Of a stretch of DNA of 64,000 nt, positions 10,707-14,770 are shown in pieces. Under the pieces are notes generated by a model. That model was not told where the DNA came from. It ran no database searches and saw only the letters and a list, made by a program, of their open reading frames with translations. The stretch lies in the NCBI GenBank assembly GCA_016839055.1, contig JAEKNX010000001.1, positions 429,693 to 493,692 on the forward strand. The letters run 5' to 3'. Numbering within the stretch: the first letter of the stretch is position 1; the number at the start of each line of letters is the position of its first letter. The stretch comes from Spirochaetales bacterium. Its GTDB lineage: Bacteria; Spirochaetota; Spirochaetia; UBA9216. A program made the translations under genes and the position numbers.

Positions 10707-10730
10707 AAAAAAACCGCCCCTAAGGGGCGG
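10707..10730 (-). terminator. Rho-independent terminator of flaB
   Basis: A perfect GC-only 7-bp stem (CCGCCCC/GGGGCGG, 10714-10720 with 10724-10730) with a 3-base loop; on the minus strand it is followed by seven T's (10713-10707). It lies about 50 bases beyond the flaB stop. Confidence 0.93.
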
Positions 10731-10778
10731 CGGGTGGTATCAGATGCTGTCATGGACTGGAACTGGAATGCTCTTATT

Positions 10779-11651
10779 TTACTGCAAAAGCTGAAGTACT
10801 GACTGGCCTTTCTGATTAGCCTGCGCCAGCATTGCTGTCGATGCCTGAATGAGAATCTGATCTTTGGTATACTTGACCATCTCAGCTGCCATGTCAGTGT
10901 CCCTGATTCTGGATTCAGCCGCCTGAAGGTTTTCTGCGCCGAGAGCCAGTCCCTGTGTTGCGTACTCGAGCCTGTTCTGATAGGCACCGAGGTCTGCACG
11001 CTGTTTGTTAACTTTCTGCATGGCAGAATCAATCATTGCCAGTGAAAGGTTAGCTTTATTGGGAGTTGAAATAGAAATAAATGTAGCCGCGTGTGATTGT
11101 CCATTTGCGGCCTGAAGACCGAGGCCCTGAGCATTCATTGTTCCGATGAAAATACGTTCCCGTTGATCAACATTGGCGCCTATATGGAGCCACATGCTTG
11201 CGGCAACAACATTTTCGCCTGTTTCTTTCGCGAATCTGCCGGTAAGCATGTTCATGCCGTTAAACTGCGCATGTGACGCAATACGGTTTACTTCGTCGAT
11301 AAGCTGTGACACTTCGACCTGAATCTGCATTCGGTCTTCACTTGAGTAAATACCATTCGCAGATTGTACTGAAAGCTCACGCAATCTCTGAAGAATTGAT
11401 GTTGTTTCTCCAAGGTAGCCTTCTGCAGTCTGAATAAAGGAAATCCCGTCTTCAGCATTTTTTTCAGCTCTCGCAAGTCCTCTGATCTGGGAACGCATCT
11501 TTTCAGACACTGCCAGCCCTGATGCATCGTCACCGGCTTTGTTGATACGCATTCCCGATGACAGCTTACTCGAGCTGTTGTCCATTGACAATGAATTGAA
11601 TTTGAGACTTCGCTGTGCAAACATTGCACTAAGATTGTGATTGATAATCAT
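10779..11651 (-). CDS. flaB: Flagellin, FlaB-type filament core protein
   Basis: A 290-aa flagellin of the spirochaetal periplasmic-flagellum core type. It has the family start [16 protein letters not shown], the D0/D1 signature [23 protein letters not shown] (split here around residue 33), [18 protein letters not shown], and the C-terminal helix ending [19 protein letters not shown]. The variable D2/D3 region is absent, as expected for FlaB. It is a single-gene unit: a sigma-28-like promoter upstream, a strong terminator downstream. AAGGAGG lies 5 bases before the ATG but inside a hairpin loop, and a second hairpin with a CsrA-like loop precedes it, so post-transcriptional control by CsrA is likely. 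Export would be through the flagellar type III apparatus. Confidence 0.97.
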
Positions 11652-11690
11652 CTAATCCTCCTTGATTAGTACACGGGACATCCTTGTCCC
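11652..11690 (-). promoter_or_regulatory. flaB leader: two tandem GGA-loop hairpins, predicted CsrA sites
   Basis: In the mRNA sense, hairpin 1 (11690-11675) is GGGACA-AGGA-TGTCCC, a perfect 6-bp stem whose sequence contains ACAAGGATGT, matching the CsrA consensus core ACARGGAUGU. Hairpin 2 (11669-11652) is CTAATC-AAGGAG-GATTAG, a perfect 6-bp stem that holds the Shine-Dalgarno in its loop and ends directly at the ATG. Two such sites, one over the ribosome-binding site, are the known layout of CsrA-repressed flagellin leaders in Bacillus (hag) and Borrelia (flaB). Binding itself is inferred. Confidence 0.8.
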
Positions 11691-11698
11691 TGTAGTTA

Positions 11699-11725
11699 AT
11701 TTCGGAATATAAACTCCGTCCTTTA
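11699..11725 (-). promoter_or_regulatory. Sigma-28 (FliA)-like promoter of flaB
   Basis: Minus-strand TAAA (11725-11722), 15 bases, then TCCGAAAT (11706-11699), against the consensus TAAA-N15-GCCGATAA. Transcription would start near 11692, only 1-3 bases before the first leader hairpin. Confidence 0.7.
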
Positions 11726-11756: not shown

Positions 11757-12344
11757 AAAAATCAGGGATTTTTGAAAAACTACCAACCCCCTAGGTGGAG
11801 TTTTTTGGCAGTGGAGTGATTTTTTTAGAAGCATGATTAATTCCGCCAAAAATACTCCGGAATCAAATTCAGGAATAACCGATTCCTGAAAATGAAGAGT
11901 TTTATAAAAATCAGGGATTTTTGAAAAACTACCAAACCCCTAGGTGGAGTTTTTTGGCAGTGGAGCGATTTTTTTAGAAGCATGATTAATTCCGCCAAAA
12001 ATACTCCGGAATCAAATTCAGGAATAACCGATTCCTGAAAATGAAGAGTTTTATAAAAATCAGGGATTTTTGTAAAACTACCAAAACCCTAGGTGGAGTT
12101 TTTTGGCAGTAGAGTGATTTTATTAGAAGTATGATTATTTCCGCCAAAAATACTCCGGAATCAAATTCAGGAATAACCGATTCCTGAAAATGAAGAGTTT
12201 TATAAAAATCAGGGATTTTTGTAAAACTACCAAAACCCTAGGTGGAGTTTTTTGGCAGTAGAGTGATTTTATTAGAAGTATGATTAATTCCGCCAAAAAT
12301 ACTCCGGAATCAAATTCAGGAATAACCGATTCCTGAATTTGATT
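11757..12344. repeat. Four tandem copies of a 149-bp structured repeat
   Basis: Near-identical units start at 11757, 11906, 12055 and 12204, an exact 149-bp period. The fourth is cut short at about 12337. Copies 1 and 2 share one set of variants and copies 3 and 4 another. Each unit holds three inverted repeats: AAAAATC-AGG-GATTTTT; a long-range pair GGAGTTTTTTGGC with GCCAAAAATACTCC (in copy 1, 11797-11809 with 11845-11858); and TTCAGGAAT-AACCG-ATTCCTGAA. A period not divisible by three and the absence of open frames argue against coding. There are no unique spacers, so it is not CRISPR. It fills the space between the flaB promoter and thiN. Confidence 0.95.
12308..12344. repeat. 16-bp perfect palindrome ending the repeat array
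   Basis: A perfect 16-bp stem (12308-12323 with 12329-12344) and the 5-base loop AACCG. The inner 9 bp are the same as in the other units; only this last copy extends to 16 bp. There is no T-run, so it is not a standard terminator. It lies 38 bases before thiN. Confidence 0.85.
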
Positions 12345-12382: not shown

Positions 12383-13009
12383 ATGAATACCAGAACAGCA
12401 CTTATATTTACGGGCGGTAAGGGACCATCCCCGGATAATGTTGATAAAGTTATCCACGGCGCCGTCTTTAGCATTGCCGCCGACTCAGGATGGGATCTTG
12501 CGAAGAGACTAGGAATCGAACCTGATATATTTATCGGAGACATGGATTCTCTCGAGGATCACGACGGTTTAAAGCAGATTTCTGACGACAGAAAGCTTAT
12601 ATTTCCGATAGATAAAGACTTTACTGATACGGAATTAGCACTGAAATATTTGAACGAGCGTAAATATCGTGATATAGTATTAATTGGAGGCGGCGGGGGG
12701 CGAATCGATCATCTGATGGCGATAATTACTCTTTTCAGCCGGAGTCCGAGGCCTTCCGAATGGTATACATCCAGAGAACTCGTCCTGTATATAGATCATG
12801 ATAGGGAAATTTCATGCTCACCAGGGCAGACCATTTCAATCTTTGCCTGCGGAAGAGATGAGGCTGAATTGAGTACTAGTGGTTTAAAATGGGAATTAAA
12901 TAATTCCGTAATTAATGAAACTTTTTTCAGTATCAGTAATACTGCGCTGAGCGAAAGGCTGAATATCAGGATTAAAAAAGGCGCTGTATTGGTGATACTA
13001 AATTACTAA
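12383..13009 (+). CDS. thiN: Thiamine diphosphokinase
   Basis: A 208-aa thiamine pyrophosphokinase, which makes thiamine diphosphate from thiamine and ATP. The catalytic core is clear: AADSGWDLAKRLGIEPD, then IFIGDMDSL, DKDFTDTELAL and GGGGGRIDHLM. The C-terminal domain is beta-rich. No other thiamine genes are nearby, so it probably completes a salvage route. There is no Shine-Dalgarno before the ATG, and the in-frame codons just upstream (12347-12382) also read like protein (LEKIIEKADIVL) but have no start codon. The upstream region is the repeat array. Confidence 0.93.
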   Translation: MNTRTALIFTGGKGPSPDNVDKVIHGAVFSIAADSGWDLAKRLGIEPDIFIGDMDSLEDHDGLKQISDDRKLIFPIDKDFTDTELALKYLNERKYRDIVLIGGGGGRIDHLMAIITLFSRSPRPSEWYTSRELVLYIDHDREISCSPGQTISIFACGRDEAELSTSGLKWELNNSVINETFFSISNTALSERLNIRIKKGAVLVILNY

Positions 13010-13027
13010 TTGATGTTGAGGAGTAAT

Positions 13028-14770
13028 ATGCTTAAGAAAGATGTGCTTGAAGAATTATCAATATCATTGTCTGAAAAGGAAAGAGTAACCCTGCTCGAAA
13101 GAATAAACCGCAATATGAACATAAATCCACAGGAGAAAGAAGTTCAGGACGAAGGCCGGAGCAAGAAAGAGCGGGAAATTCACATAGAGAACGAACTTAA
13201 ACATCTCGGCTGGTTCAGGAAGCTGATAATGCTCATAATAAGTAAATTATCTGGAAAGAAACTTGAGGAAATAGTAGTTGAAAGCATGATGAAAAAGCTT
13301 AAGAAAACTATTTCCCGCAAACAGCCGGGGCTGACCGGTTTCGAAAGCCGGAATCTGACTCCGCTTTTCGGAGAGATGGTGTTTGAATTATTTGCTTATA
13401 CCTTTGAGTTCCATGAGCTGTACCGGAAATTATGGCTTGAGCCCGGAGTGTATGAATCTTGCTGTCAGTACATCGTCAGTTCGATGTATAAAGAAACGAA
13501 GATAATCCTCGATGATTTTATAAGTCTTAAGGAACTAGTAGATCTCTATGCGGAGTCAGGAAGAAAAGATTTCCTTGTTGAAGAAGTTGATAGAAAAATT
13601 AAGGAATACTGTGATGATATTCCGGTTGCGCTGTATGACGAGATTGAGAACAGTATAGAACCGCTGTATGATCTTAAAGATATAATTCTTTTTCCTTATA
13701 TTGCTTTTTTCAAAAAATTCAGCTTTACCCCGATCCGCAGTGACGACCAGGGAAAGCATTTCTTTAAGAATGCTTCGGTAATGCTGTGCCTTGATGATCT
13801 GAAAATGCTCTACAAGGCTTTTATGTCGGGCGCTATGCTTGACGACGATGCCGTTATAAATAAATATCTGATTGAGTTCATCAGGAGTTTAGGCGATGAG
13901 AACGCGGTACCCAAGAGTGATCAGAATGTCCTTAACAAGCTTATTGTCAAGGTTAAGGAATATAACAGGAATGTTCCAATACTTGAACTGCTGCGTTTTT
14001 TTCGGAAGGACCCCTTCCTTCAGATAAAAATTTCGTCAGAAAAAAAGAGTTTCAAAGATGTATATGCCGGAATTCTTCACGCAGAGATGAAGAATCAGGT
14101 GGATCTAAGATATTCTGAAATACAGGCTGAGTATATTGAGCGAGAGATTGGCAGGATTTTTAAGGATCAACCGTTTGCCGAGTTTCGAAATTACCGGAAA
14201 TATGCGAGCATTGATTATCAGAAGATGGGGCTTCCGTATTTTTCACACATAAAATCGCTTAATGTGCTCTACAACTATATTAAATGTTTCTATCAGAGTC
14301 ATTTACAGGATCTTATCTCTATTCTCGAGAAGGGGGTTCTGTCACAGAATAGAATAACCCGCGACAGACTTCTTAATCATTCCATCGCGCTTCAGGAATT
14401 GGAAGACAAGATTAACAGCTCCGATAATTCGCTTTCTCCGGATGGGGAAGACGGGAAGCTGTTCCATAAGCTCCGGATGACACTCGCCGCCGAACCTTCT
14501 CAGCAGAGGATGTTCAGATCGCTTGTAAAGCATAAAAACAAGGAAGTTCAATCGCTGATAGAGTGGGGAGAAGAAGCCCTGGCTGGACTCGAACGGATTT
14601 TTGATGAGCTTGTCGGAAGCACATCCAATGTTGTTAAAGTTCAGCTTAACAAGCATTATCTGTTTAAGGGGAAATCGACTACCCTTGTAAGCCTGCTGAA
14701 GACGAGGGCGAAGCATATCAGGGAGATAAGAAACCTTATCTCCAAGATTAATAAACTGGAATCCAATTGA
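13028..14770 (+). CDS. Large spirochaetal conserved hypothetical protein
   Basis: A 580-aa soluble, highly charged and mostly helical protein (MLKKDVLEELSISLSEKER, later LKHLGWFRKLIMLIISKLSGKKLE). The sequence reminds me of a spirochaete-restricted family annotated as DUF5312, but I cannot check this. One weakly hydrophobic stretch around 65-75 could touch a membrane. No catalytic motif is seen. The ATG at 13028 is preferred over TTG/ATG 15-18 bases upstream because AGGAG lies 4 bases before it. It follows thiN by 18 bases, so the two are probably co-transcribed. Confidence 0.75.
   Translation: MLKKDVLEELSISLSEKERVTLLERINRNMNINPQEKEVQDEGRSKKEREIHIENELKHLGWFRKLIMLIISKLSGKKLEEIVVESMMKKLKKTISRKQPGLTGFESRNLTPLFGEMVFELFAYTFEFHELYRKLWLEPGVYESCCQYIVSSMYKETKIILDDFISLKELVDLYAESGRKDFLVEEVDRKIKEYCDDIPVALYDEIENSIEPLYDLKDIILFPYIAFFKKFSFTPIRSDDQGKHFFKNASVMLCLDDLKMLYKAFMSGAMLDDDAVINKYLIEFIRSLGDENAVPKSDQNVLNKLIVKVKEYNRNVPILELLRFFRKDPFLQIKISSEKKSFKDVYAGILHAEMKNQVDLRYSEIQAEYIEREIGRIFKDQPFAEFRNYRKYASIDYQKMGLPYFSHIKSLNVLYNYIKCFYQSHLQDLISILEKGVLSQNRITRDRLLNHSIALQELEDKINSSDNSLSPDGEDGKLFHKLRMTLAAEPSQQRMFRSLVKHKNKEVQSLIEWGEEALAGLERIFDELVGSTSNVVKVQLNKHYLFKGKSTTLVSLLKTRAKHIREIRNLISKINKLESN

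Follow-up and report, generated by a model that had tools for sequence, protein, structure and literature searches.

Is the short leader in front of the flagellin gene flaB of this Spirochaetales bacterium an RNA operator for CsrA, and if so, which of its properties are kept among spirochaetes? The gene lies in a stretch of 64,000 nucleotides (the window), taken from a genome of 5.0 Mb in 43 contigs. Its product carries the Pfam domains Flagellin_N (2.5e-43) and Flagellin_C (8.6e-27), and is 86–88% identical to FlaB of the relatives L003–L005. The parts of the locus are as follows.

11699–11725, minus strand: sigma-28-like promoter, by sequence match (TAAAG at 11725–11721, 14 nt, TCCGAAAT at 11706–11699)
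11675–11690, minus strand: hairpin 1, candidate CsrA site 1, GGGAC-(AAGGAT)-GTCCC, GGA at 11683–11681 (fold, motif, covariation)
11670–11674, minus strand: linker GTGTA between hairpins 1 and 2, unpaired in the fold
11652–11669, minus strand: hairpin 2, candidate CsrA site 2, CTAATC-(AAGGAG)-GATTAG, GGA at 11661–11659 (fold, covariation)
10779–11651, minus strand: flaB, flagellin of 290 aa, the gene under proposed control (ATG at 11651–11649)
10713–10731, minus strand: putative terminator-like hairpin 3′ of flaB, GCCGCCCCTTAGGGGCGGT TTTTTT, from a consensus scan
12383–13009, divergent from flaB: thiamin pyrophosphokinase gene

We analysed the fold of the leader and the rarity of its parts. The predicted fold of the 48-nt leader consists of exactly hairpins 1 and 2 (−14.3 kcal/mol, z −3.0), and an equally good fold was found in 2 of 200 shuffles. 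Both hairpins stayed when a longer stretch including the first flaB codons was folded, with four additional pairs (UACA/UGUA) below hairpin 1, an extension that was not seen to be kept in relatives. A scan of both strands of the window for a 5-bp Watson–Crick stem closing an ANGGAN loop returned two sites, hairpins 1 and 2 themselves; shuffled windows held 0.6 such sites on average, and no pair of them 14–40 nt apart, the distance by which a pair was defined. A chance origin of the two hairpins was rejected on the leader-fold shuffles together with this window-wide count. Rfam gave no match at the leader. The AAGGAG loop of hairpin 2 (11663–11658) is the Shine–Dalgarno sequence of flaB, with its GGA 10 nt from the ATG and 22 nt from the GGA of hairpin 1, and the 3′ end of hairpin 2 abuts the ATG. 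The two hairpins of the preliminary description, the second one ending at the start codon, are thus real by sequence, fold and window scan. Hairpin 1 had, however, been drawn there as GGGACA-AGGA-TGTCCC (11690–11675), a 6-bp stem with a tetraloop; a 5-bp stem, GGGAC/GTCCC, closing the hexaloop AAGGAT is the better reading, because CsrA/RsmE structures recognise an ANGGAN hexaloop. By simple pairing, the loops of hairpin 1 in relatives are 4 to 6 nt long.

The promoter-like element TAAAG-N14-TCCGAAAT ends 8 nt upstream of hairpin 1. The sigma-28-like pattern is weak by itself (5 matches in the window vs 2.3 expected). L003, L004 and L005, the three nearest relatives, have this element at the identical position, 22 nt before the first GGA, and other members of the window's clade have it close to hairpin 1; among shuffled leaders, a sigma-28-like pattern occurred anywhere in 1%. 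The genome also encodes a high-scoring fliA (C33:59443). The position of the element would place the flaB transcription start at about 11694–11691. Outside the clade the element lies 48–89 nt from the first GGA, and the compact form is therefore a property of the window's clade and some others rather than of spirochaetes at large.

A search of the genome for csrA and fliW, suggested in the preliminary description, found both, side by side. There is one csrA (C33:128192; PF02599, 1.1e-24), directly preceded by a 152-aa fliW frame (PF02623, 3.2e-36) in the gene order flgK-flgL-fliW-csrA; the operon order is the same in Leptospira and T. denticola (PMC8668096, PMC9481697). The CsrA protein aligns without gaps to CsrA of E. 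coli (1y00) and of Bacillus, keeps L4, R6 and R44, and carries at its C terminus an extension of the kind through which Bacillus FliW acts (PMC7652899). The nearest solved relatives of this CsrA and this FliW are the two partners of one FliW–CsrA complex, 5dmb, from Bacillaceae homologues. Two further flagellin genes lie 7–9 kb from csrA, each with a GGA-loop hairpin and a GGA Shine–Dalgarno sequence in its leader, the GGA motifs being 20 and 22 nt apart.

We compared the leader with those of 80 related spirochaete flaB loci. A GGA-loop hairpin before the Shine–Dalgarno sequence is recognisable in 79 of the 80; it is weak in L042, and L076 has none. The CANGGANG motif is present in 76 of 83 leaders, as compared with 4% of shuffled ones. 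When CANGGANG sites were picked by the motif alone, ignoring pairing, the three flanking positions could pair in 99, 99 and 93% of cases, vs 71, 78 and 46% when the arms were swapped between leaders. The covariation score of hairpin 1 over 49 distinct forms was 0.614, vs 0.170 in shuffled alignments, a control that leaves the kinship of the sequences in place, and at most 0.21 for slid structures, which remove it and score low. In these 49 forms C5, A6, GGA at 8–10 and G12 are invariant, and the other stem pairs co-vary. Hairpin 2 scored 0.544 in the window's clade (0.150 shuffled) and, more weakly, 0.335 (0.143 shuffled) over the 41 distinct leaders of its type; here C-A-N-GGAG-G is fixed while the stem co-varies. 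It is weaker outside the clade, and some leaders (OWN_A, CCAAAGGAG type) have no stem at this place. In the combined two-hairpin alignment 92.3% of cells are paired, 8 of the 12 pairs show double changes, and the score is 0.504 vs 0.168. Related spirochaetes, a comparison on which the preliminary description had let its reading depend, thus keep both stems with compensatory changes. The invariant C, A, GGA and G occupy matching loop positions in the two hairpins and together spell C-ANGGAN-G, the sequence bound by CsrA/RsmE (PMC4894983, PMC7652899).

A separate observation concerns the Treponema-type leaders (L021, L027, L034, L041, L044, L047, L052, L056, L058, L060, L061, L065, L066, L072, L075, L079 and L082), in which hairpin 1 has a GC-rich helix (often CGGCG...CGCCG) next to it and the Shine–Dalgarno site is of the CCAAAGGAGTG rather than the TCAAGGAGGA type.

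A covariance model built on the two-hairpin form of the leader was specific for flagellin genes. At E<0.05 it found the three flagellin leaders in the genome of origin and nothing else. The next match there (E 0.19) was rejected, as no reading frame follows it on its strand and it overlaps the end of a gene on the opposite strand; no other target of the model in this genome was convincing. Across the phylum, 172 of 296 genomes contained matches. Of these, 29 from outside the genome of origin were fetched, and every one ends at a flagellin start codon. The model had no match in a family of 0.9–1.9 Mb genomes that, by their size, may be Borreliaceae. The structure model is precise enough for finding targets in genomes.

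We found csrA in 267 of the 296 genomes, and a comparison of the two lists left eight with a model match and no csrA found. Of the eight, two have no flagellin match, three are drafts 60–86% complete, two run into a contig end near flgK, and one is without fliW and without flgK over the cut-off. The matches in G266 and G281, where flagellin and csrA are both absent, were taken as false positives. Four drafts (G215, G023, G179 and G028), in which neither csrA nor fliW was found, have flagellin leaders of the two-hairpin type. In two of the four the sequence stops no more than about 300 nt past the flgK match, and the other two have neither fliW nor flgK over the cut-off. Assembly gaps are likelier here than loss of csrA, because the contigs break near flgK or flgK is missing too. 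No clear case of a leader without csrA is left, in a set whose draft genomes preclude a strict test. G215, rated 99% complete, has GGA hairpins at two of its three flagellin genes; csrA, fliW and flgK over the cut-off were not found in it.

We analysed the distance between the two sites. In the flaB leader, stem 1 is separated from the ANGGAG loop by 11 nt, namely GTGTA plus the 5′ arm of hairpin 2; the 51 leaders that lack an insert have 7–21 nt of such free linker (median 12). Thirty leaders have 39–116 nt between the two sites. For 28 of them, folding gathers the insert into a single helix, beginning 0–1 nt after hairpin 1, with 4–14 nt left free, vs 3.8 (sd 1.9) in shuffles, with the limits of this criterion (start at 0–1 nt, tail of 4–14 nt) having been chosen after inspection of the data. 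When each clade was represented by a single leader, such a helix was present in 12 of 14, vs 1.9 in shuffles. The mean unpaired length after folding did not differ between long leaders and their shuffles (10.0 vs 10.3). On the FlaB tree the long form requires at least seven changes, three of which are forced by well-supported branches. L032 has 71 nt at this place, vs 8 in its sister L062; L032 differs from its close relatives L062 and L077 by a folded insert of 60 nt, and so offers a natural pair for testing the intersite distance.

One CsrA dimer bridges sites 10–63 nt apart, best above 18 nt (PMC7652899). The 22 nt of the flaB leader fall within this range, and several of the long-spacer leaders would exceed it if unfolded. 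We take the spacer helices as good, though not conclusive, evidence of selection on the folded intersite distance, a constraint that a single CsrA dimer spanning both sites would impose. We consider it reasonably likely that the leaders of spirochaete flagellin genes belong to a single RNA family, specific to flagellins, whose intersite distance is selected as folded and not as linear, and that inserts between the sites became, several times independently, a helix beside hairpin 1 that brought the second site back to about 10 free nt. If this is true, selection on folded distance would be evolutionary evidence for an obligatory bridging of the two sites by a single CsrA dimer. The spacer helices are also a series of natural variants on which the reach of one dimer can be tested.

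The flaB leader is, very probably, a two-site CsrA operator in RNA. Sigma-28 RNA polymerase would start transcription just upstream of hairpin 1. A CsrA dimer would then hold the ANGGAN loop of hairpin 1 tightly, and its second RNA-binding face would take the Shine–Dalgarno sequence that forms the ANGGAG loop of hairpin 2, so that bound CsrA would block the ribosome at flaB. FliW, encoded beside csrA, would remove CsrA, and unexported flagellin would tie up FliW, with the consequence that flagellin would be made only while it can be exported. The promoter-like element, the conserved and co-varying hairpins with their fixed loops and effective spacing, and csrA, fliW and fliA are read directly from the DNA; for CsrA binding, repression, release by FliW and feedback by flagellin, we infer the steps from known homologues. 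The earlier reading of the leader as two GGA-loop sites for CsrA, the second on the ribosome-binding site, is supported by the presence of csrA-fliW, the co-varying stems and the fixed loops.

It is possible to explain the hairpins without CsrA. Hairpin 1, at the inferred 5′ end, could be a stem that stabilises the mRNA, and hairpin 2, which holds AAGGAG open in its loop, could merely present the Shine–Dalgarno sequence. This is very improbable, however, with csrA-fliW in the genome and the extra sequence between the sites folded away. A pure stabiliser and presenter is rejected because the stems vary freely while C-ANGGAN-G is fixed in both loops, and a stabiliser needs no such loop. The same letters bear on an RNA thermometer, or another RNA-binding protein, as the reader of the hairpins. 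Hairpin 2 is indeed A+U-rich and lies beside the start codon, but the Shine–Dalgarno sequence is in its loop and unpaired, and the loop letters fit the CsrA consensus CANGGANG, so that other candidates are unneeded; we regard this explanation as the least likely of all.

A different question is the sign of the control. CsrA may bind the leader and activate or stabilise flaB mRNA, a role that it has at E. coli flhDC and that has been suggested for it at L. interrogans flaB, and a site at the extreme 5′ end could shield the message from RNase. The sign of CsrA control can differ, because overexpression of CsrA in L. interrogans raised the flaB1, flaB2 and flaB4 mRNAs (PMC8668096). Activation is nevertheless very unlikely at this flaB, where site 2 covers the Shine–Dalgarno sequence up to the ATG, the arrangement of C. 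jejuni flaA and B. subtilis hag, both of which are repressed; repression through the two-site operator remains the reading that we favour.

The closest known system is C. jejuni flaA, with a sigma-28 promoter, a 45-nt leader and two ANGGA stem-loops 21 nt apart, the second one on the ribosome-binding site (PMC4894983). There, CsrA binding, footprint and repression are proven, FliW is the antagonist, and relatives show compensatory changes (Dugar et al. 2016, PMC4894983). C. jejuni belongs to another phylum and has fliW apart from csrA, and the case made here rests on sequence, but the parts and distances are the same, which makes our leader a further, well-supported instance of a known control; the 'unusually compact form' claimed for it earlier is not supported, given this architecture. 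In B. subtilis hag, as summarised in later papers, CsrA occludes the Shine–Dalgarno sequence from two leader sites and FliW antagonises it (Yakhnin 2007, Mukherjee 2011, via PMC8523840, PMC7652899); the leader described in those summaries shares the two sites and the covered Shine–Dalgarno sequence with ours but is longer (sites at about 51–55 and 75–82 of the mRNA). Among spirochaetes, flaB of B. burgdorferi is, according to articles citing the original work, likewise a flagellin gene repressed by CsrA at the Shine–Dalgarno sequence (Sze et al. 2011, via PMC9481697, PMC8668096, PMC3757020), and L. biflexa flaB3 is a further precedent for CsrA control (PMC8668096). In T. denticola, CsrA sites are predicted near the Shine–Dalgarno sequences of flaB1 and flaB2 (PMC9481697). 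It resembles our bacterium in its flgN-flgK-flgL-fliW-csrA cluster and in the sigma-28 promoter of flaB2, but the flaB2 leader is long, with the start mapped 124 nt before the start codon (PMC9481697). The sites TGACAAGGATGT and CTAAGGAGGG predicted for C. difficile fliC are near-identical in letters to ours, in a leader of 91 nt (PMC8523840). To the known control of flagellin by CsrA, our leader adds breadth in spirochaetes, loop and stem statistics, and the spacer helices. The CsrA–FliW flagellin checkpoint would thereby extend to a broad range of spirochaetes with periplasmic flagella, both free-living and host-associated.

A tandem array (11757–12337 of the window) of a 149-bp unit, in 3.9 copies with 97% identity, lies between the promoter of flaB and the thiamin pyrophosphokinase gene divergent from it. 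No other full copy of the unit was found in the genome, and the units contain a hairpin that scores as terminator-like on the minus strand. The next gene beyond that for thiamin pyrophosphokinase, directly adjoining it, encodes a 586-aa DUF5312 protein (PF17239, 6.3e-21; 13010–14770, plus strand).
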